From Pseudomonadota bacterium (lineage in GTDB: Bacteria > Pseudomonadota > Gammaproteobacteria > Burkholderiales > Burkholderiaceae_C), in contig CAUJIM010000098.1 in assembly GCA_963205335.1 (NCBI GenBank), forward strand, positions 19,521 to 83,520: 64,000 nt of DNA. Direction: 5' to 3'. Below are positions 840 to 59,639 of the stretch, one piece after another. Position 1 is the first letter of the stretch, and every line of letters begins with the position of its first letter. The notes beneath the pieces were generated by a model. That model saw nothing but the letters and a program-made list of their open reading frames with translations, searched no databases and was not told where the DNA came from. A program made the position numbers and the translations under genes.

Positions 840-1661
840 ATGCTGATGTACCCCCACATCGATCCGGTGGCGCTGCAGGTCGGGCCGCTGGCGATCCACT
901 GGTACGGCCTGACCTACCTGGCCGGCTTCGCGCTCTTCATGTGGCTGGGTACGCTGCGCCTGGCGCACGAGCCCTACGCGTCGCTCCGGGGCGGGCAGGC
1001 CTGGTCGCGCAAGGACGTGGAGGACATCCTCTTCCTCGGCGTGCTCGGGGTCATCGTGGGCGGGCGCCTGGGCTACTGCCTGTTCTACAAGCCGGAGTAC
1101 TACGCCGCGCACCCGCTGGAGGTCTTCGCCGTCTGGCAGGGCGGCATGAGCTTTCATGGCGGCATGCTGGGCGTGGCGGCGGCGATGCTCTGGTACGCGC
1201 ATTCGCGCCATCGCCCGTGGCTGCAGGTCGTCGACTTCGTCGCCCCCTGCGTGCCCACGGGGCTGGCGGCGGGGCGCATCGGCAACTTCATCAACGGCGA
1301 GCTGTGGGGGCGTTTCGCCTCGCCCGACCTGCCCTGGGCCATGGTGTTCCCGCAAAGCGGCTCGATGCAGCCGCGCCATCCGTCGCAGATCTACCAGTTT
1401 CTGCTCGAAGGCCTGCTGCTCTTCGTGCTGCTGTGGCTGTACGCGCGCCGCCCGCGCAAGCGCGGCGAGGTGGCGGCGGCCTTCCTCGTGGGCTACGGCG
1501 TGCTGCGCTTCACGGCGGAATACTTCCGCGAGCCCGACAGCTACCTCGGGCTGCTGTCCCTGGGCCTGAGCATGGGCCAGTGGCTCTGCCTGCCGATGAT
1601 CGCGGCGGGCGCCGCCCTGTGGCTGTGGGCGCAACGCGCGGGGGCCGCCCATGGCCGGTGA
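840..1661 (+). CDS. lgt: Prolipoprotein diacylglyceryl transferase
   Basis: Integral membrane [12 protein letters not shown] and [14 protein letters not shown] signatures. Confidence 0.95.
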
Positions 1662-2457
1662 GATCGCGCTGCGGGCGGCGGACGAGGCCGGCGTGGTGCG
1701 CGTGACGCTGCGCCACGACGGGCGGCTCAATGCCATGACGCGCGCCATGTGGCGCGAGCTGCGCACCGTCTTCGAGCGCATCCAGCGCAGCGCGGACGCG
1801 CGCTGCGTGCTGGTCGAGGGCGCGGGCGAGGCCTTCTGCGCCGGCGGCGACATCTCCGAGTACCCGGCGTTCCGCTTCGACGCGGCGCGGCTGCGCGCGT
1901 TCCACGAGGTCGAGGTCTGGGGCGGCCTCTCGGCGATGCTGGCGTGCGACGCGCCCATCGTCGTGGCGATCCGCGGCGCCTGCATGGGCGCGGGCGTGGA
2001 GATCGCGTGCTGCGGCGACATCCGCCTGGCCGAGGAGGGCGCGCGCTTCGGCGCGCCGATCGCGCGCCTGGGTTTCCCGATGGCGCCGCGCGAGGCGGCG
2101 CTGGTGGCCAGCCGGGTGGGTGATGCAACGGCGCGGCAGATGCTGCTGGCCGCCGCCACGTTCGATGCCCGCGCGCTGCATGCCGGCGGCTTCCTGAGCG
2201 AGGTGCTGGCGCCGCAGGCGCTGGGCGAGCGCGCGGAGAAAACCGCCCGCCACATCGCCGCGCTGGCGCCGCAGGCCGCGCGCATGAACAAGCGCACGCT
2301 GCGCGCAATTTCTGAACAAAATACGGCTCCAGCGCTTGCTGGACAAGCGCAAGCAGCTATGGTTTCAGGGATGGAAGACGCCTACGCCTATGCCGACAGC
2401 AGCGAGCACCGCGAGGGCATAGAGGCGTTCCTGGCCAAACGCAGGCCACGGTTCTGA
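1651..2457 (+). CDS. Enoyl-CoA hydratase/isomerase family protein
   Basis: Crotonase fold motifs ([30 protein letters not shown]); overlaps lgt 3' end. Confidence 0.88.
2316..2364 (+). repeat. Dispersed palindromic repeat, copy R2 (in-frame inside the enoyl-CoA hydratase gene)
   Basis: CAAAATACGGCTCCAGCGCTTGCTGGACAAGCGCAAGCAGCTATGGTTT. Confidence 0.8.
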
Positions 2458-2526
2458 GCACGGCGCATCCATTGGAAATTGCAGGGGTCGCGCGGTTGCC
2501 GCCGGGCGGTGGAAGGGCTGGTAAGA

Positions 2527-3432
2527 ATGCTGGGCACCGATGAACTGTTCAAGCTTGCCCGGATCGTGGATACGGGCAGCTTCATACGCGCGGCGAGCGA
2601 ATTGGGCGTGACGCAGCCGGCGCTGAGCAAGAGTGTCGCGCGATTGGAGCGCACGCTGGGCGTGCGTCTGCTGGAGCGGCGTGCGCGTGGCGTGATCGCG
2701 ACGCCGTATGCCGTGGCCTTGCTGCATCGGGCCCTGCCGGCATTGGCCGAGCTGCGCGCGGCCGAGCAGGAAATCGAGGCCATGCGCGGCGGAGTCGGCA
2801 GCTCCGTGGTCGTGGGTTTGGCGCCTGCCGCGGCGCATGGGCTGCTGCCGCGCGTGATCGAGGCGCTGCGCCGAGCCGAGCGAGCCATCAGCCTGCGAGT
2901 GGCCGAAGGACTGGCCGAGGAGCTGACCCAGGGCGTGCGCACCGGCAAGCTCGACTTCGCCATCACGACGCAATCGACGGGTCTGCATGCGCCGGAGCTG
3001 TCGGTCCAGGGTCTGCACGAAGACCGTTTCGTGGTGTGTGGACCGGTCGACCACCCGTTGACCCAGGGCAGCCAGCCAGCCAGCGCCCAGGCGCTGGCCA
3101 CGGTCGATTGGGTGCTGGCGCCCATGGGTGGGCTGCTGCGCGCCGAATTCGACAGCTGCTTTCTGAACCAGAACGCCACGCCCCCGAGGGCGCTGGTGGA
3201 GACCTGGTCGGTGTCGATCAGCAAGGGGCTGGTCAAGGAGCAGGGGTTCTTCAGCTTCCTGCCGACGAGCGTGGCGGCGGCGGAGCAGCGCCGCGGCGAG
3301 CTGGCCTTCCTGAAGCTGGACTGGCTGCAGTGGCGCCGCAAGGTGTCGCTGGTGCAGCGGCGGGGGCAGACGCTCTCCGCATCGCAGCGCTTCGTGCGGG
3401 GCCTGTTCTGGGATGCGGCCCGGCAGCCTTGA
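2527..3432 (+). CDS. LysR-family transcriptional regulator
   Basis: N-terminal HTH FKLARIVDTGSFIRAASELGVTQPALSKSVARLERTLGVRLLER. Confidence 0.93.
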   Translation: MLGTDELFKLARIVDTGSFIRAASELGVTQPALSKSVARLERTLGVRLLERRARGVIATPYAVALLHRALPALAELRAAEQEIEAMRGGVGSSVVVGLAPAAAHGLLPRVIEALRRAERAISLRVAEGLAEELTQGVRTGKLDFAITTQSTGLHAPELSVQGLHEDRFVVCGPVDHPLTQGSQPASAQALATVDWVLAPMGGLLRAEFDSCFLNQNATPPRALVETWSVSISKGLVKEQGFFSFLPTSVAAAEQRRGELAFLKLDWLQWRRKVSLVQRRGQTLSASQRFVRGLFWDAARQP

Positions 3433-3467
3433 CACGTGCAGGAAAACCCCTAAGAAGATATTCCATT

Positions 3468-3487
3468 TGGTTATTGAAAATTAACCA
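3468..3487. promoter_or_regulatory. Candidate LysR-type operator (inverted repeat TGGTTA-N8-TAACCA)
   Basis: TGGTTATTGAAAATTAACCA in an AT-rich gap between lysR and the catabolic operon. Confidence 0.5.
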
Positions 3488-3596
3488 TCATGGTATTTCT
3501 GATGCCATCCCCGGGTGAAAGAATCGGTCGCAAGTGAGGGGTCGGCATCCCGAGTCGGCCGCTTCATGACAGGACGTTTGACGAAGGGGCGCGCAG

Positions 3597-4427
3597 GTGG
3601 TTTCTGCTTCTCGCATTGGCCGGACCCACGGCAAGCCGATGATCGCCTACGAGGTCCAGGGCGATGGACCGGCGGTGGTGTTTCTTCACGGCATCGGTGG
3701 CCATCGAGGCAACTGGGCCGATCAGCTCGGCTGTTTTTCCCGGCACTACCGTGCGGTGGCCTGGGACGCGCGCGGCTATGGCGACTCTGATGATTACGAC
3801 GGACCATGCCGGTTCGAGGATTTCAGCGACGACCTTGCCGGCCTGCTTGACCATCTGGACGTCGAACGCGCCCATTTGGTGGGCCTGTCGATGGGCGGGC
3901 GCATCCTGATGGACTTCGCCGTGCGCCATGCGGGGCGGGTGCGCTCGCTGGTCGTTGCGGGCTCGTTTCCCAGCTTTGGCAGCGCGCTGACCCCCGAACA
4001 ACAGCAGGAATACATGCGGCTGCGGCGCGAACCGCTGCAGCGCGGGCTGTCGTTCGCGCAACTGGCGCCCCAGCTTGTCGCTTCGCTGGTAGGGCCCCAG
4101 GCGAGCGCCCGGGTACGCGAGCGCATGGCAGCAAGCATTGCCAAGCTGCGCCCCGACGCTTACCTGAAAACACTGGAGGCTACCTTGCACTTCGATCGCA
4201 CGGCGACCCTGGGAGAGATCGAGGCGCCGACTTTGCTGATGTACGGCCAGTTCGATTCCCTGGTGACTCCTGAAGCCGGCCGCCAGGTGCAACAGGCCAT
4301 GCGCCATGCGGAGTACCGCGTGGTCGAAGGTGTGGGGCATTTGATCAACCTGGAAGCCCCCGATGTCTTTAACGCCCTGGTGCTGGACTTCCTGGCCCGC
4401 CATGGTGATGACAGGCAGGGGGCGTAA
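3597..4427 (+). CDS. Alpha/beta hydrolase (candidate deformylase/hydrolase of a catabolic pathway)
   Basis: VVFLHGIGGHRGNW, nucleophile elbow GLSMGG, GHLINLEAP; GTG start. Confidence 0.85.
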   Translation: MVSASRIGRTHGKPMIAYEVQGDGPAVVFLHGIGGHRGNWADQLGCFSRHYRAVAWDARGYGDSDDYDGPCRFEDFSDDLAGLLDHLDVERAHLVGLSMGGRILMDFAVRHAGRVRSLVVAGSFPSFGSALTPEQQQEYMRLRREPLQRGLSFAQLAPQLVASLVGPQASARVRERMAASIAKLRPDAYLKTLEATLHFDRTATLGEIEAPTLLMYGQFDSLVTPEAGRQVQQAMRHAEYRVVEGVGHLINLEAPDVFNALVLDFLARHGDDRQGA

Positions 4428-4729
4428 TGCTGTTTGCGATCCATTGCCTGGACAAACCCGGTGCCGAGGCGCTGCGCCAGGCTGCGCGAGATGCGCACTC
4501 CGCTTATATGCGGGCGCAGGTTGGCCGCATTGTCTTTGGCGGCCCGCTGCTGGCGAGCGATGGCGTCACGCGCATAGGCACTTTGATGGTGGTTGATCTT
4601 CCTTCGCGCGCCGAACTGGAAGCCTTTCTCGATTCAGAGCCCTACCGTCGTGCTGGCCTCTTCGGCCGATGCGAGGTGCATCCCTATCAACTGGTTGTGC
4701 AAAGCGGTCATTTCGCTTCTATGTGCTGA
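4427..4729 (+). CDS. YciI-like (muconolactone-isomerase-fold) protein
   Basis: Small ORF MLFAIHCLDKPGAEALRQAARDAHSAYM...GGPLLASDG...; ATG overlaps upstream stop. Confidence 0.75.
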   Translation: MLFAIHCLDKPGAEALRQAARDAHSAYMRAQVGRIVFGGPLLASDGVTRIGTLMVVDLPSRAELEAFLDSEPYRRAGLFGRCEVHPYQLVVQSGHFASMC

Positions 4730-4740
4730 AAGGAAGATCC

Positions 4741-5805
4741 ATGCTGGAACGCATCGAGGGCAAATGGATTGCCATGTTCGCGAGAACCTTCCGACTGTGC
4801 GGCATAGGGCAGGGTGACGCGGTGGCCATCCTGTCGGAAACGCAGTCGCGCGACGTCAACGTGCAGCTGGCGGAGCTGGCGCTGCATGAGCTTGGCGCGC
4901 GCGCCTTTCACGTGCGTTTGCCGACGCCGGCCCTGGTCGACAACATCCCGGTGCGTTCGACGGGTGCGTCGACAGCCATTGGAGGGCTGGAGCCCGTGCT
5001 CAAGGCGCTGGCCGCGGCGCACACGGTGATCGACTGCACCGTGGAGGGGCTTTTGCACAGCCCGGAACTGCCGCACATCCTTCGGGGCGGCGCGCGCCTG
5101 TTCATGATCAGCAACGAACACCCCGAGGTGCTGGAGCGCCTGCAGCCCACGACGGCGCTGCGGCCGCGGGTGGATGAGGCCAGGCGCCGCCTCAGCGCCG
5201 CATCGCGCATGACGGTGACTTCCGAAGCCGGCACGGCACTGGAGATCGATGTCCGTGGAGCGCCCGTGCGCGGCGCGGTCGGCTACGTGGACCAGCCTGG
5301 CCAGGTGGCCTATTGGCCGGCTGGGCTGTGCCTGTGCTTTCCCCGGCAGGGTTGCGTCAACGGCCGCGTGGTGCTGGACGAGGGCGACGTCAACCTCACC
5401 TTCAAGCGCTACATCGCCCGTCCTGTGGAGCTGGTGTTCGAGAACGACCACGTGGTGCAGATCGTCGGCCAGGGGCTCGATGCCGACCTGCTGCGCAGTT
5501 ACTACGCGGCCTGGGAAGATACGGCGGCCTATGGCGTCTCGCACGTGGGCTGGGGTCTGAACCCGCTGGCGCGCTGGGATGCGCTGGCCATGTACGACAA
5601 GAGCCAGGTCAACGGGACGGAGCTGCGCGCGTTTGCCGGCAGCTTCCTGTTTTCCACCGGGGCCAACGAACACGCCGGGCGATTCACGCGCGGCCACTTC
5701 GACTTCCCGATGCGCCATTGCACGGTGATGCTCGACGGCGTGGCGGTGGTCGAGCAGGGACGGCTGGTTGACCCAGAGCCCATCGGGGAAGCTGGCAATG
5801 AGTGA
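4741..5805 (+). CDS. 2,5-dihydroxypyridine 5,6-dioxygenase-like protein (NicX/PicD family)
   Basis: Remembered NicX-family similarity: LLHSPELPHILRGGARLFMISNEHPEVLERLQPT, VLDEGDVNLTFKRY, YGVSHVGWGLNPLARWDALAMYDK, FAGSFLFSTGANEHAG. Confidence 0.75.
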   Translation: MLERIEGKWIAMFARTFRLCGIGQGDAVAILSETQSRDVNVQLAELALHELGARAFHVRLPTPALVDNIPVRSTGASTAIGGLEPVLKALAAAHTVIDCTVEGLLHSPELPHILRGGARLFMISNEHPEVLERLQPTTALRPRVDEARRRLSAASRMTVTSEAGTALEIDVRGAPVRGAVGYVDQPGQVAYWPAGLCLCFPRQGCVNGRVVLDEGDVNLTFKRYIARPVELVFENDHVVQIVGQGLDADLLRSYYAAWEDTAAYGVSHVGWGLNPLARWDALAMYDKSQVNGTELRAFAGSFLFSTGANEHAGRFTRGHFDFPMRHCTVMLDGVAVVEQGRLVDPEPIGEAGNE

Positions 5806-7453
5806 CGCCGCCATCGTCGAGGTGCCCATCCTCATCGCCGGAGGCGGCTCGACCGGGCTCAGCCTGGCGGCCGAGCTGGGCTGGCGCGGCACGCCGTGCA
5901 TGCTGCTGGAGCCCGGGTTGCAGCCCAATCCGCACCCTCGGGCCAATGCACTCGGCAATCGCAGCATGGAGTATTACCGGCGCTGGGGCATCGACAGACG
6001 GTTGACGGGCGCTGGGGTGCCGGCCGACTATCCGGCCAACTACTTCTGGGTGTCCAGGCTCGACGGGCGCGAGATCCATGCGCTGCGCCTGCCAGGCCAG
6101 GCCGAGCTGGAGGCCATCCGGGCGCGCACGGCCGTCGATCCGTCCCACGAGCTGCACTGGTCGCCCTACCTCAAGACCATCGTCGGCCAGCATGTCGTGG
6201 AGCGGGTGCTGCGCGAGTATGTGGCCGAACGCGCCAGCGTAGAGGCGCGCTATGGCTGGGTGCTCGACGATTTCGCGGAGCACGGCGACCACGTGCTGGC
6301 CACCGTGCGGCAGGTCGACAGCGGCCGGCGCCAGCAAGTGCGTTGCCGGTGGCTCGTGGGCTGCGATGGTGGACGCTCGCGGGTGCGGGAGCGTCTGGGC
6401 TATGAACTGCGCGGCAGGGGTGGGTTGGCGCACTTCGTCTCGATCTACTTTCACGCCCCTCAACTCATGTCCTGCCACTCGTTCGGGCCGGCCAACATCT
6501 ACTTTCCCATCCATCGCAAGCACCGTGGGTTCCTGCTGAACTGGAATACCGGGACGACGTGGACCTACCACCTGATCCTGGAGCCGGGCACGGACTGGCG
6601 CGACATCGCTCCGGAGCACGCCATCCGGTCGCTGGTGGGGCGGGATACGCCCGTCGAGGTGATCTCGGTCCAGCCCTGGACGGCGCACGCGCTCACGGCC
6701 GAGCATTACCGCAGTCCGGGGGGGCGCGTGTTTCTGGCTGGCGACGCGGCCCATTTGTTCACGCCCACGGGAGGGCTGGGCATGAACACCGGGGTGTCGG
6801 ATGCCATCGATCTGGCGTGGAAGCTGGGTGCCTGCCTGGAGGGCTGGGGCGGCGAGCGCCTGCTGGCGAGCTACGAGACCGAGCGCCACCCCATCGGCGT
6901 GCGCAATACGGCCGAGGCGGCAGACAACTTCGATCGCTTGTTCGGCGTCATGCAGCATGGCGATGAACTGGAAGCCGAGGGTGCACAGGCCGATGCGTTG
7001 CGTGCCGATCTCAGGGCGGAGCTGGCACGGCAGGAGAAGCTGCTCAAGTCGTCCGGCGTCTTGCTGGGCTACCGCTACGAAGGCTCGCCCATCTGCGTGG
7101 CCGACGGCACGCCCGAGCCGCCCGACCACCCGCAGCAATACGTGCCTGTGGCCCGCCCGGGGCATCGCGCGCCCCATGCGTGGCTGGCCAATGGCCGTTC
7201 GGTGCTGGATTTGCTGGGCTCCGGGTTCACCCTGCTGTGCTTCGACGGCGTGAACGCTTGCGCACAAGCGTTCGAGAGTGCCTGCGCCCGGCAGGGCGTG
7301 CCCCTGAAACTGGTGCCGATCGACGCGCCGGAGATCCGCCGGCTGTACGGCGAGCGCGCGTGCGTGCTGGTGCGGCCCGATCTGATGGTGGCCTGGCGTG
7401 GCGACACGGTGGCCGACGCGCAGGCCGCCGTGCGAACCATACGGGGTGCGTGA
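5798..7453 (+). CDS. FAD-dependent aromatic monooxygenase (PheA/TfdB/MhpA-like)
   Basis: PILIAGGGSTGLSLAAELGWRG, GCDGGRSRVRERLG, RVFLAGDAAHLFTPTGGLGMNTGVSDAIDLAWKL; overlaps the NicX-like stop by 8 nt. Confidence 0.9.
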   Translation: MSDAAIVEVPILIAGGGSTGLSLAAELGWRGTPCMLLEPGLQPNPHPRANALGNRSMEYYRRWGIDRRLTGAGVPADYPANYFWVSRLDGREIHALRLPGQAELEAIRARTAVDPSHELHWSPYLKTIVGQHVVERVLREYVAERASVEARYGWVLDDFAEHGDHVLATVRQVDSGRRQQVRCRWLVGCDGGRSRVRERLGYELRGRGGLAHFVSIYFHAPQLMSCHSFGPANIYFPIHRKHRGFLLNWNTGTTWTYHLILEPGTDWRDIAPEHAIRSLVGRDTPVEVISVQPWTAHALTAEHYRSPGGRVFLAGDAAHLFTPTGGLGMNTGVSDAIDLAWKLGACLEGWGGERLLASYETERHPIGVRNTAEAADNFDRLFGVMQHGDELEAEGAQADALRADLRAELARQEKLLKSSGVLLGYRYEGSPICVADGTPEPPDHPQQYVPVARPGHRAPHAWLANGRSVLDLLGSGFTLLCFDGVNACAQAFESACARQGVPLKLVPIDAPEIRRLYGERACVLVRPDLMVAWRGDTVADAQAAVRTIRGA

Positions 7454-7515
7454 TGCCTCGCCCAACGCGGCCCCATGCGCCGCGCCGGATTTTTTACAAC
7501 GTGGAGACTGAAGCG

Positions 7516-8640
7516 ATGAAAAAATGGATGTTCCTGCTGCTGGGCTGCCTGTCCATGCAATTGCATGCCGAAATCGTGGTGGGTGTGACGGTGAGTGCCA
7601 CGGGGCCGGGCAGTTCCTTGGGCACTCCGATTGCCAATGCGGCAAAAATCCTGCCCAAGACGGTAGGGGGAGAGCCCGTGCGCTATATCGTGCTGGACGA
7701 TGCCAGCGATCCCACGGCGGGCACCAAGGCGGCACGCAAGCTGGCCGTCGAGGACAAGGTGGATGTGTTGATTGGCTCCAGCACCCTTCCTTCGGCCATT
7801 GCACAAGCGACCGTGGCGAGCGAGGAGCGTTTGCCGATGATCGCGATCGCCCCGATGGCGATCGACCCCGCGAAGCAGCCCTTCGTGTTTTCAATTCCGC
7901 AACCGATCTCGCTGATGGTGGATGCGCTGACCGAGCACATGGTCGCGAACCGCGTCAGGAACCTGGGCTTCGTTGGTTTCTCGGATGCCTGGGGTGATCT
8001 GACGTACAGCAGCATGAAAGCCAGCGCTGGGGCCGCAGGGGTCAATATCACGGGCAATGAGCGGTATGCGCGGCCCGATGTCGCGGTGACGGGGCAGATG
8101 CTGAAATTAATGGCGCAGAATCCGGACGCGGTTTTCGTCGGAGGGTCCGGGGCGCCTTCAGCCTTGCCGCAGATCACCGCCGCCGCTCGCGGATTCAACA
8201 AGACCTTCTACCACACCCACGGTGTCGTCAATCGCGACTTTATCTGCGTCGGGGGCAAGAGCGTGGAAGGGGCGATCGCACCCACCGGGCCGGTGGTGGT
8301 GGCCGAGCAGTTGCCAGCCGACCATCCGCTCAAGGCGACGGGCCTGGCGTTTCTGAAGCGCTATGAAGAAGAGTACGGCGCGGGCTCGAGGAACGCCTTC
8401 GCCGCCTATGCGTGGGATGTCGCGACGATCATCGAGGCTGCGGTGCCCACCGCCCTGAAGGCGGCAAAGCCGGGAACCCCTGCCTTCCGGCAAGCCTTGC
8501 GCGATGCCATCGAAAATACCCACGAAGTCAAAGGCACCCACGCCGTCTACACCATGAGCGCGACGGACCACCACGGGGTGGACAAGCGTGCCCGGGTGCT
8601 TGTCCGGGTCGAAAATGGCGAATGGAAGTTGATCAGGTAA
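7516..8640 (+). CDS. ABC transporter periplasmic substrate-binding protein (LivK-like)
   Basis: Signal peptide MKKWMFLLLGCLSMQLHA followed by type-I periplasmic binding fold (DDASDPTAGTKAARKLAVEDKVDVLIGSS). Confidence 0.85.
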   Translation: MKKWMFLLLGCLSMQLHAEIVVGVTVSATGPGSSLGTPIANAAKILPKTVGGEPVRYIVLDDASDPTAGTKAARKLAVEDKVDVLIGSSTLPSAIAQATVASEERLPMIAIAPMAIDPAKQPFVFSIPQPISLMVDALTEHMVANRVRNLGFVGFSDAWGDLTYSSMKASAGAAGVNITGNERYARPDVAVTGQMLKLMAQNPDAVFVGGSGAPSALPQITAAARGFNKTFYHTHGVVNRDFICVGGKSVEGAIAPTGPVVVAEQLPADHPLKATGLAFLKRYEEEYGAGSRNAFAAYAWDVATIIEAAVPTALKAAKPGTPAFRQALRDAIENTHEVKGTHAVYTMSATDHHGVDKRARVLVRVENGEWKLIR

Positions 8641-8652
8641 AGGCAGTCGTCC

Positions 8653-10032
8653 GTGGATAAACCCTCGGCCTCCAAAGAGAGCGGGAACAGTACGGTGCGC
8701 CAGCGCCTGGGCGCGATGTTTAGCCGTGGGGTGGATGCCGTGGGTGGCTGGAGTTCGCGTCGCCTGTTGCATGAGTTGCAGCAGGTGCTGAATTCGGCGC
8801 TCAGCGATGTCGAAGGCGGGCGTCACGCGGCTGCCGTGGCCGACTGGTACGCTCAAGCGCGCCCGGCGCAGCGACGCGAATGCTGGTTGCTGATGAGCGA
8901 GCGGTTTCCGCTGGACGATTCGGCCATCGGCGCCGCGCACCACGTCTATCGGCAAGCCCGTGGTACGGGCGAGCAGGCGCAAGCAGAGGTAAACCTGCGC
9001 CAAGCCTTCTCCGCCCCGCGCACCCGCTTGTTGCAGCGCTTTTCGGCCTTTTCCGGCGGCGTGCGGTTTCTGGTGGACATGCGTGCCGAGCTTTTGCCTG
9101 AGCTGCGCCGCGACAAGCGGCTGGCGGCGCTGGATAGCGAGTTGCAGGAACTGTTTTCGACCTGGTTCGATGTGGGCTTCCTGGAGTTGCGGCGGATCAA
9201 CTGGGACTCTTCCGCCTCGCTGATTGAAAAGCTCATCAAATACGAGGCCGTGCATGACGTGCGCAGCTGGGAGGATGCAAAGAACCGGCTTGATGACGAT
9301 CGGCGCTGCTACGGCTTTTTCCATCCGCGGCTGCCGGGCGAGCCGCTGATTTTTGTCGAGGTAGCCCTGTTGCGCGAGATGGCCGCAGGCATCGAACCGC
9401 TGCTGGACGTGGAGGCCGCGCCGGCCGACTCGAACAAGGCCAGCACCGCGATCTTCTATTCCATCAGCAATACCCAGGCTGGCTTGCGAGGCGTGAGTTT
9501 TGGCAACGACTTGATCAAGCGCGTGGTCGAGCAATTGCAGTCCGAGTTCCCGCGCCTCAAACTGTTTGCGACGCTTTCACCCATCCCGCGCTTGCGCTCC
9601 TGGCTCGAAAGCAACATCGAATCCCTGCTCAAGAGCGCTCCGGCCCGCACGCGCCAGGCGCTGGGCCGTGAGCTGGGCCTGGCCACGGCACCTGCGGCCG
9701 CCGACATGCTGGCCGCACTTGATGGCGTAGCCGGTTGGCCCGAAGGCAGCGCCTGCGCGCGCTGGCTGCTGGGCGCGGCGGCGCAATACCTGGGGCGCGG
9801 CCTGACTCCCGAGGGGCGGCCACTCGACCCGGTGGCGCGCTTTCATCTGGGCAACGGCGCACGCATCGAACGCATCAATTGGCTGGGCGACCCGTCACCC
9901 AAGGGCTTGCGCCAGTCCTGCGGCCTGATGGTCAATTACCTGTACGACCTGAAGCGGGTGGAGCGCCACCGCGCACAATTGGCCCAGGGCAAGCCGCCGC
10001 TGTCCGGCGCGGTGGAAGGCCTGTTATCGTGA
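8653..10032 (+). CDS. Malonyl-CoA decarboxylase
   Basis: MLYCD-like: INWDSSASLIEKLIKYEAVHDVRSWEDAKNRLD, AIFYSISNTQAGLRGVSFGNDLIKRVV, FATLSPIPRLRSWL. Confidence 0.9.
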   Translation: MDKPSASKESGNSTVRQRLGAMFSRGVDAVGGWSSRRLLHELQQVLNSALSDVEGGRHAAAVADWYAQARPAQRRECWLLMSERFPLDDSAIGAAHHVYRQARGTGEQAQAEVNLRQAFSAPRTRLLQRFSAFSGGVRFLVDMRAELLPELRRDKRLAALDSELQELFSTWFDVGFLELRRINWDSSASLIEKLIKYEAVHDVRSWEDAKNRLDDDRRCYGFFHPRLPGEPLIFVEVALLREMAAGIEPLLDVEAAPADSNKASTAIFYSISNTQAGLRGVSFGNDLIKRVVEQLQSEFPRLKLFATLSPIPRLRSWLESNIESLLKSAPARTRQALGRELGLATAPAAADMLAALDGVAGWPEGSACARWLLGAAAQYLGRGLTPEGRPLDPVARFHLGNGARIERINWLGDPSPKGLRQSCGLMVNYLYDLKRVERHRAQLAQGKPPLSGAVEGLLS

Positions 10033-10048
10033 TTGCCGGAGATGCCCC

Positions 10049-11608
10049 ATGAATTCATCCAACCTGTTCAGCGCCCTGCGCGCCGCCTTTCCCCAGGACC
10101 TGGACGCCACCGCCGTCTTCGCCACCGCGCCCGACGGCGCGCCGCTCAACTACTCCTGGCGCGACCTCGACCGCGCCAGCGCCTGCATCGCCAACCTGCT
10201 GGCGTCCCTTGACCTGCCCGCGTCCAGCCGCATCGCGGTGCAGGTGGAGAAGTCGGTCGAGGCCATGCTGCTGTACCTCGCGGTGCTGCGCGCGGGCCAT
10301 GTCTTTCTGCCGCTGAACACCGCCTACCAGAAGGCCGAGATCGAGTACTTCATCGGCAACGCCGAGCCCGCGGTGGTGGTCTGCTCGCCGGAGAACTTCG
10401 GCTGGGTCTCCAAGATCGCCTTCCAGGCCGGCACCAAGAGCGTCTTCACGCTCGGCACCGAGCGCGACGGCAGCCTGCTGGAGCGCGCCGCGCACTGCAG
10501 CGACGTGCACGCGCCGGTGGCGCGCGGCAGGGACGACATGGCCGCCATCCTCTACACCAGCGGCACCACGGGGCGCAGCAAGGGCGCGATGCTCACGCAC
10601 GGCAACCTGCTCTCCAACGCGCTGGTGCTCAAGGACTACTGGGGCTGGCAGGCGGACGACGTGCTGATCCATGCGCTGCCGATCTACCACGCGCACGGCC
10701 TGTTCGTCGGCGTGCACGGCGCGCTGATCAACGGCAGCCCCATGGTCTGGTTCAACAAGTTCAACCCCAGGGCCGCGATCGCCGCCTTCCCGCGCGCCAC
10801 GGTCTTCATGGGCGTGCCCACGCTGTACGTGCGCATGCTGGCCGAACCCGCGCTCACGCGCCAGGCGGCGGCGCACATGCGCCTGTTCATCTCGGGCTCG
10901 GCGCCGCTGCTGGTCGATACCTTCGCCGCCTGGCAGGAGCGCACCGGCCACACCATCCTGGAGCGCTACGGCATGAGCGAGACGGTGATGCTCTGCTCCA
11001 ACCCCTACCGCGCCGACGCGCGCTACCAGGGGCAGAGCGAGCGCCGCGGCGGCACCGTCGGCTTTCCGCTGCCCGGCACCGGGCTGCGCGTAGTGGACGA
11101 CGCGGGCGCGGTCTTGCCCGCGGGCGAGATCGGCCACATCCAGGTGCGCGGGCCCAGCGTGTTCAAGGGCTATTGGCGCATGCCCGAGAAGACCGCGCAG
11201 GAGTTCGCCGAAGGCGGCTGGTTCAAGACCGGCGACGTAGGGCAGCAGGACGCGCGCGGCTACGTCACCATCGTCGGGCGCAGCAAGGACCTGATCATCA
11301 GCGGCGGCTTCAACGTCTACCCGGCCGAGATCGAGAGCTTCATCAACGAACTGCCCGGCGTGGCCGAGAGCGCGGTGGTCGGCGTGCCGCACGCCGATTT
11401 CGGCGAGGTCGGCGTGGCCGTGGTCGTGCCGCGCGCCGGCGCCCGGCCCGATGCCGCGGCCATCGTCGCCCGGCTCAGGGACACGCTGGCGCACTTCAAG
11501 GTGCCCAGGCGCTGCTTCGTCGCGGATGCGCTGCCGCGCAACACCATGGGCAAGGTGCAGAAGAACCTGCTGCGCGAGCAGTACCGCGATCTGTTCCTGA
11601 AAGCATAG
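10049..11608 (+). CDS. Malonyl-CoA synthetase (MatB-like acyl-CoA ligase)
   Basis: AMP-binding motif ILYTSGTTGRSKGAMLTHGNL; GRSKDLIISGGFNVYPAEIE; adjacent malonyl-CoA decarboxylase. Confidence 0.88.
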   Translation: MNSSNLFSALRAAFPQDLDATAVFATAPDGAPLNYSWRDLDRASACIANLLASLDLPASSRIAVQVEKSVEAMLLYLAVLRAGHVFLPLNTAYQKAEIEYFIGNAEPAVVVCSPENFGWVSKIAFQAGTKSVFTLGTERDGSLLERAAHCSDVHAPVARGRDDMAAILYTSGTTGRSKGAMLTHGNLLSNALVLKDYWGWQADDVLIHALPIYHAHGLFVGVHGALINGSPMVWFNKFNPRAAIAAFPRATVFMGVPTLYVRMLAEPALTRQAAAHMRLFISGSAPLLVDTFAAWQERTGHTILERYGMSETVMLCSNPYRADARYQGQSERRGGTVGFPLPGTGLRVVDDAGAVLPAGEIGHIQVRGPSVFKGYWRMPEKTAQEFAEGGWFKTGDVGQQDARGYVTIVGRSKDLIISGGFNVYPAEIESFINELPGVAESAVVGVPHADFGEVGVAVVVPRAGARPDAAAIVARLRDTLAHFKVPRRCFVADALPRNTMGKVQKNLLREQYRDLFLKA

Positions 11609-49861: not shown

Positions 49862-49938
49862 TGGTAGGCGCGATTGGACTCGAACCAACGACCCCCACCA
49901 TGTCAAGGTGGTGCTCTAACCAGCTGAGCTACGCGCCT
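49862..49938 (-). tRNA. tRNA-Val (anticodon GAC)
   Basis: AGGCGCGTAGCTCAGCTGGTTAGAGCACCACCTTGACATGGTGGGGGTCGTTGGTTCGAGTCCAATCGCGCCTACCA, full cloverleaf. Confidence 0.95.
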
Positions 49939-59563: not shown

Positions 59564-59639
59564 TGGTGCCGGAGAGAGGAATCGAACCCCCGACCTTCTC
59601 ATTACGAATGAGCTGCTCTACCGACTGAGCTACTCCGGC
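59564..59639 (-). tRNA. tRNA-Thr (anticodon CGT)
   Basis: GCCGGAGTAGCTCAGTCGGTAGAGCAGCTCATTCGTAATGAGAAGGTCGGGGGTTCGATTCCTCTCTCCGGCACCA. Confidence 0.95.

Follow-up and report, generated by a model that had tools for sequence, protein, structure and literature searches.

Operons of the hbpCAD and mhpABC type bring together a phenol hydroxylase, a ring-cleavage dioxygenase and a hydrolase. The hcdABC genes form an operon of the same type (PMC6222606). The dioxygenase NicX of Pseudomonas putida KT2440 (PDB 7cn3/7cup) binds its iron through His265, Ser302, His318 and Asp320; its Glu177 contacts N1 and O1 of 2,5-dihydroxypyridine and its His189 contacts O1. That pyridine is the only substrate reported for NicX, and no activity on others is on record (PMC7910607). 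The subject here is a block of genes in a 64,000-nt stretch of DNA (the window: positions 19,521-83,520 of contig CAUJIM010000098.1 in GCA_963205335.1, a draft genome that is 86.6% complete) in which the three-enzyme logic of hbpCAD, mhpABC and hcdABC recurs, with a predicted flavin adenine dinucleotide (FAD)-dependent hydroxylase, a ring-opening dioxygenase and an alpha/beta hydrolase. In contrast to those operons, which have a classical extradiol dioxygenase, the window has an enzyme of the NicX fold, and its hydrolase is nearer to PcaD than to BphD/MhpC. We consider it probable that the block is an operon, horizontally acquired and under LysR control, that takes up a hydroxyaromatic carboxylic acid (not 2,5-dihydroxypyridine) and opens its ring by oxidation. 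Its features are the following.

2527-3432, + strand: LysR-type regulator (Pfam HTH_1 and LysR_substrate; PcaQ/CynR-like at superfamily level)
3468-3487, + strand: candidate LysR operator TGGTTA-N8-TAACCA, in the gap between lysR and the hydrolase gene (abh)
3597-4427, + strand: alpha/beta hydrolase (Pfam Abhydrolase_1; nearest solved relative PcaD, 3-oxoadipate enol-lactonase)
4427-4729, + strand: YciI-like protein (Pfam YCII; nearest and only solved relative TftG)
4741-5805, + strand: NicX-fold non-heme Fe(II) dioxygenase of a separate clade (match to 7cn3, model, tree)
5798-7453, + strand: predicted FAD-dependent aromatic hydroxylase (PRK06126 subfamily, RebC-like; Pfam FAD_binding_3 and Rng_hyd_C)
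7516-8640, + strand: LivK-like protein, predicted to bind aromatic acids in the periplasm (Peripla_BP_6)
8653-10032, + strand: malonyl-CoA decarboxylase (MCD; Pfam MCD and MCD_N), within the inserted block
10049-11608, + strand: malonyl-CoA synthetase MatB (PRK07514, 831 bits), by its conservation a resident gene at the right border, outside the island
2458-10048, no strand: genomic island between ech (end 2457) and matB (start 10049), placed by congener junctions and a shift in GC content at third codon positions (GC3)

All eight open reading frames from lysR to matB are intact and run in one direction. They are joined by a 1 bp overlap at 4427, an 11 bp gap (4729/4741), an 8 bp overlap (5798-5805) and gaps of 62 bp (7453/7516), 12 bp (8640/8653) and 16 bp (10032/10049). 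The gene set, order, single direction and tight joins of a first-pass annotation made from the DNA letters are borne out by these coordinates, its protein families holding at superfamily level.

The dioxygenase and its conserved partners

A sequence search with the dioxygenase found NicX (7cn3, E=1.3e-57) and no other match of weight; no Pfam or NCBIfam family matched, M29 Pfam models included. The AlphaFold2 model (predicted local distance difference test score, pLDDT, 87) has 7cn3 as its best Foldseek match, with a TM score of 0.89. The four iron ligands of NicX are invariant in all 82 aligned homologues, the window protein included, which also retains Leu104-His105. In contrast, the two enzymes share ~36% identity, and both of the substrate-contacting residues referred to above are replaced in the window protein (Glu177 by Ala, His189 by Tyr). 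Glu177 is present in 11/11 proteins of the NicX clade and in 0/71 of the window's clade, which have Val, Gly, Ser, Asn or Ala there; at position 189, His is kept in 50 and Tyr is found in 21. A tree made by a quick method, with support from the SH-like approximate likelihood-ratio test (SH-aLRT) and with authentic PicD and Hpo outside it, splits the NicX set from the 71-member clade at 100% and groups the window protein with those of loci L001, L002 and L003 at 99%. That group has Tyr189 together with Arg or Lys at the position of NicX Val175.

By its residues, tree position and partners, the dioxygenase is a member of the NicX-fold family but is predicted not to be a 2,5-dihydroxypyridine dioxygenase. 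The earlier label "NicX/PicD-like" is therefore right as to fold and iron ligands but not as to clade or substrate contacts. Beside NicX-clade members, nic-type partner genes are found (identified by eye from sequences), and an alpha/beta hydrolase is common to the nic/pic clusters and the window. The flavin enzyme partners are different, and the window block has neither amidase nor maleate isomerase. One genome (G251; L129, L130) carries three NicX-fold genes, two of them from different branches of the window's clade and one NicX-like.

Partners were counted within 6 kb of the dioxygenase gene. Sixty-four loci were checked, 46 of them flanked on each side by 2.5 kb or more (44 distinct places, L033/L130 and L018/L137 being duplicates; fragmentary loci from metagenome-assembled genomes were left out). 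Each of the 46 has exactly one of three types of flavin enzyme (a RebC-like FAD monooxygenase of the window type, a smaller FAD monooxygenase or an acyl-CoA-dehydrogenase-like protein), two types being found together in none, and 42 have a PcaD-like alpha/beta hydrolase. A conserved gene order around the NicX-type dioxygenase, which the first-pass annotation had proposed to search for, is thus found. The acyl-CoA-dehydrogenase-like type often has a flavin reductase alongside, and its YEG motif is without the customary glutamate, both of which would suit a two-component monooxygenase. A flavin enzyme that is exchanged while dioxygenase and hydrolase stay the same would be expected if its slot were ring hydroxylation ahead of ring opening. 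The clade is found in Burkholderiales, Alphaproteobacteria and Actinomycetota. Small-genome Burkholderiales (family f19, L156-L160; four of the five genomes are 1.7-2.1 Mb, with a GC of 38-45% in those four) keep a minimal operon of dioxygenase, hydrolase and FAD enzyme; in L156-L158 it is followed by a gene for a periplasmic binding protein that belongs to another family than the window's.

The FAD enzyme of the window, which carries the GxGxxG, DG and GD motifs, matches PRK06126 over its whole length (577.9 bits, cut-off 445) and scores 161 bits against the MhpA-type model PRK06183 (cut-off 390), so that its earlier description as MhpA-like was too specific. It also matches RebC (E=8e-87) and 2,4-dichlorophenol 6-monooxygenase (2e-55). 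RebC and RdmE serve natural-product biosynthesis, whereas the context here is catabolic. A phylum-wide search in which three candidates were scored per genome returned only the window's own genome at E<=1e-150, a figure from which rarity is not inferable. The hydrolase, with a GLSMG nucleophile motif and a C-terminal GH, matches PcaD (2xua, E=8e-28) ahead of esterases and BphD/MhpC. The YciI-like protein, recognised as such from the start and confirmed by Pfam, has TftG (5-chloro-2-hydroxyhydroquinone dehydrochlorinase, 4lbh) as its sole solved match (E=1.7e-8); one His and a GGP motif are common to 8/8 aligned sequences. TftG acts on a chlorinated hydroxyhydroquinone, but no chlorinated substrate is implied for the window. 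YciI-like genes are present in the window, L001, L002, L003, L011, L014 and L015.

The insertion and its putative regulator

The genes lgt, ech and matB are neighbours in six of the eight congeners, where a short spacer bridges what are positions 2457 and ~10061 of the window. The dioxygenase gene is missing from 8/8 congeners and is present in 11 of 121 relatives, the window's own genome counted. The genes from lysR to that for MCD have GC3 values of 0.62-0.86, against 0.88-0.95 for the upstream genes and 0.95-0.96 for matB and leuA, in agreement with the earlier impression of a block less GC-rich than its flanks. The block from ~2458 to 10048 is a horizontally acquired insertion between ech and matB. 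No direct repeats or integrase were seen at its borders (junctions inspected by eye, gene calls listed; no systematic search was made). Two tRNA genes on the minus strand of the window, tRNA-Val(gac) at 49862-49938 and tRNA-Thr(cgt) at 59564-59639, are without link to the island.

The TGGTTA-N8-TAACCA dyad is perfect and is the single match in the window, with 0.00 expected. In L001 and L003 a LysR homologue with 50% identity flanks the same set of genes in divergent orientation. In L003, from the cultured Polaromonas sp. OV174, the lysR-abh gap has identical half-sites at identical spacing (8749-8768), although lysR is inverted there, and the dyad is extended to TTTGGTTA-N8-TAACCAAA; in L001 a degenerate form can be made out by eye. 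We infer that the window LysR may regulate the operon through this dyad.

Substrate, pathway and competing readings

The LivK-like protein has CouP and IadK2 as whole-length relatives at E~1e-99 to 1e-102 (43% and 47% identity, respectively) and on that likeness is assigned to their B-III family of aromatic-acid solute-binding proteins. CouP binds hydroxycinnamates (PMC3610893) and IadK2 binds indole-3-acetate (PMC10374108). The carboxylate-binding Arg (197/199) and Ser222, in common with CouP (4jb0), are kept, as are F168, W172, R199, F308 and Y311 of IadK2 (7ylt). In contrast, Gln305 and His309 of CouP and Ser104 and Asn126 of IadK2 are replaced, so that neither coumarate nor indole-3-acetate is likely to be the exact ligand. 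Homologues with the same residue pattern occur in L002/L128 (69-71% identical) and L006 (48%). In L128 a complete Liv transporter stands beside the module, and genes for an HcaE/HcaF-like Rieske dioxygenase and an HcaB-like dehydrogenase are divergent from livK. Taken together, the binding-protein family, these L128 neighbours and the TftG relative speak for an acid of the aryl or arylalkanoic kind, without naming it. Two described pathways were compared and set aside: the iad operon for indole-3-acetate, brought in on account of the binding protein, has a Rieske oxygenase and no NicX-type enzyme at its first step, and the window protein lacks two of the specificity residues of IadK2; the dioxygenase KpiC of the 4-hydroxypyridine (kpi) pathway is an unrelated protein of the amidohydrolase family.

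We infer an order of steps, and an acid as substrate, as follows. The LivK-like protein would bind an acid of aryl or arylalkanoic type, whose ring the FAD monooxygenase would hydroxylate; the NicX-fold Fe(II) enzyme would insert O2 and open the ring beside a hydroxylated carbon. The PcaD-like hydrolase would then cleave the ring-opened product at a lactone, C-C or acyl bond, and in part of the family the TftG-like YciI protein may tautomerise an intermediate or eliminate from it.

Several observations weigh against this account. No family member that was found has a known substrate, product or activity, and the genome is the incomplete draft already referred to. The three flavin enzymes are putative hydroxylases by family membership, which is a weak point. 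The window LivK-like protein has no permease genes alongside, and L001 and L003 have a TctC-type protein in its place; several of the related loci lack YciI. The window's own genome has four ring-hydroxylating alpha subunits, none of them close to the HcaE-type Rieske dioxygenase of L128. A sister module on rhizobial plasmids (described below) has a glutamine-synthetase-like gene and an APC permease, so that the branches probably act on different substrates.

A more specific form of the proposal, possible but clearly less probable, is that the substrate is another N-heteroaromatic acid (a hydroxylated picolinate, or one of quinoline or indole type), opened in NicX-like fashion by an enzyme whose recognition pocket has been reshaped to take a carboxylate. 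A pyridine is the one kind of ring on which NicX is known to act, the Arg/Lys175 and Tyr189 of the window's group could hold a carboxylate, and the five IadK2 pocket residues listed above are present in the binding protein. S104 and N126 of IadK2 are not kept, however; among the window-group loci examined, none was seen to have an N-heterocycle-specific hydroxylase next to it, and TftG acts on a carbocyclic hydroquinone. The first-pass suggestion of a variant pathway for an N-heterocycle or hydroxyaromatic acid stands in so far as the block is an oxidative aromatic-ring unit with a NicX-type dioxygenase and foreign composition, its N-heterocycle branch now being confined to compounds other than 2,5-dihydroxypyridine.

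It is unlikely that the operon serves catabolism of the nicotinate/picolinate type, with the FAD enzyme making 2,5-dihydroxypyridine or a close derivative, the dioxygenase yielding N-formylmaleamate, the hydrolase deformylating it, and amidase and isomerase encoded elsewhere. The common fold, iron ligands, Leu104-His105 and alpha/beta hydrolase partner speak for such a scheme, but the loss of Glu177 and His189, the fully supported separation from the NicX clade and the lack of nic/pic partner genes move the window away from the nicotinate and picolinate routes to which it had at first been likened. Maleamate amidase, maleate isomerase and 6-hydroxynicotinate monooxygenase are all missing from the island. 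A NicE-type maleate isomerase was found neither in the neighbourhood, as had been noted at first, nor in the 86.6%-complete genome, in which the best NicF-like match is weak (35% over 139 residues, to an isochorismatase-like member of the amidase superfamily). A gene for a Rieske ring-hydroxylating alpha subunit lies ~0.8 kb from that isochorismatase-like gene (G000:C69:27040-28860).

The inclusion of the malonyl-CoA genes in the operon, also part of the first-pass annotation, raises the question of whether ring cleavage yields malonate or malonyl-CoA, for which MCD and MatB would be the lower pathway; we regard this as improbable. The gaps of 12 and 16 bp favour it, as does the MCD gene itself, with an island-like GC3 of 0.79 and a horizontal signature: it is nearest to a gene of another genus (70%, G024) and only 59% identical to that of congener G002, whereas ech and matB look vertical. 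Against it, MCD is beside 0/64 of the homologous dioxygenases, and it occurs independently of catabolic genes in both G024 (near lgt/ech) and G002 (near ech/matB). MatB adjoins ech in six congeners, to which it is 86-88% identical (78% in G002), and it is native along its whole length; on this conservation it is taken as a resident chromosomal gene that was there before the block arrived. MCD and MatB thus fail as conserved partners of the catabolic module, and the malonyl-CoA link is treated as probably incidental, although the genes may have been functionally recruited into the module recently. Gene order in this neighbourhood is fluid (window 840-10032 compared with L046 and L053): lgt-mcd-ech in G024, mcd-ech-matB in G002, lgt-ech-matB in six congeners and lgt-ech-island-mcd-matB in the window.

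That the protein is an M29-type aminopeptidase or other non-oxygenase, as databases label its relatives on rhizobial plasmids and as a relationship of the NicX fold itself to M29 might allow, is very hard to believe when its model scores TM 0.54-0.61 against M29 aminopeptidase structures and 0.89 against NicX, no M29 Pfam model matches, the NicX iron ligands are invariant and flavin enzymes and a hydrolase are constantly alongside, so that the clustering with M29 aminopeptidases envisaged in the first-pass annotation is not seen.

The clade and its other modules

The window's clade appears to be a widespread and apparently uncharacterised branch of ring-opening enzymes that databases misname: records on rhizobial plasmids call its members "peptidase M29", a name that conceals them from pathway searches, and a literature search (on the sister module and on NicX-like enzymes acting on other substrates) found nothing naming it. 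A wider generalisation, somewhat less likely than not, is that the NicX fold is no single-substrate curiosity and defines a broad class of aromatic ring-opening enzymes, in which this clade would open non-pyridine (benzenoid or bicyclic) hydroxyaromatic acids with an interchangeable flavin hydroxylase and a PcaD-like hydrolase. The clade keeps the iron site, never has the pyridine-binding glutamate, is retained even by Burkholderiales with small genomes and also occurs in freshwater bacteria; if the proposal is true, it would amount to an overlooked route for dissolved aromatic carbon. The swapping of flavin hydroxylases predicts that the dioxygenase acts on the flavin-hydroxylated product, and the binding protein offers a quick route to the identity of the ligand.

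The sister module on rhizobial plasmids (L165, 8998-16726; L166, 8245-17373) combines the dioxygenase labelled "peptidase M29" with genes for an acyl-CoA-dehydrogenase-like protein, a hydrolase, a TetR regulator, a glutamine-synthetase-like protein, a flavin reductase and an APC permease. In Aminobacter a gene annotated as tyramine oxidase subunit B is found at a distance of a few kb. The make-up of this branch suggests an aromatic amine substrate.

At ten further loci (L025, L026, L028-L031, L037, L131, L134 and L135) a module of dioxygenase, hydrolase, flavin enzyme and CoA ligase adjoins a gene for a hydroxylase of the salicylyl-CoA/anthraniloyl-CoA type (PRK08255); in Limnohabitans this PRK08255-linked module is embedded in a larger cluster of CoA-dependent aromatic genes. 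In L033/L130 and L024 the module takes a third form, with a small FAD monooxygenase and an unnamed protein of ~106 residues, and in L130 genes for BenA-like and VanA-like Rieske oxygenases are nearby.

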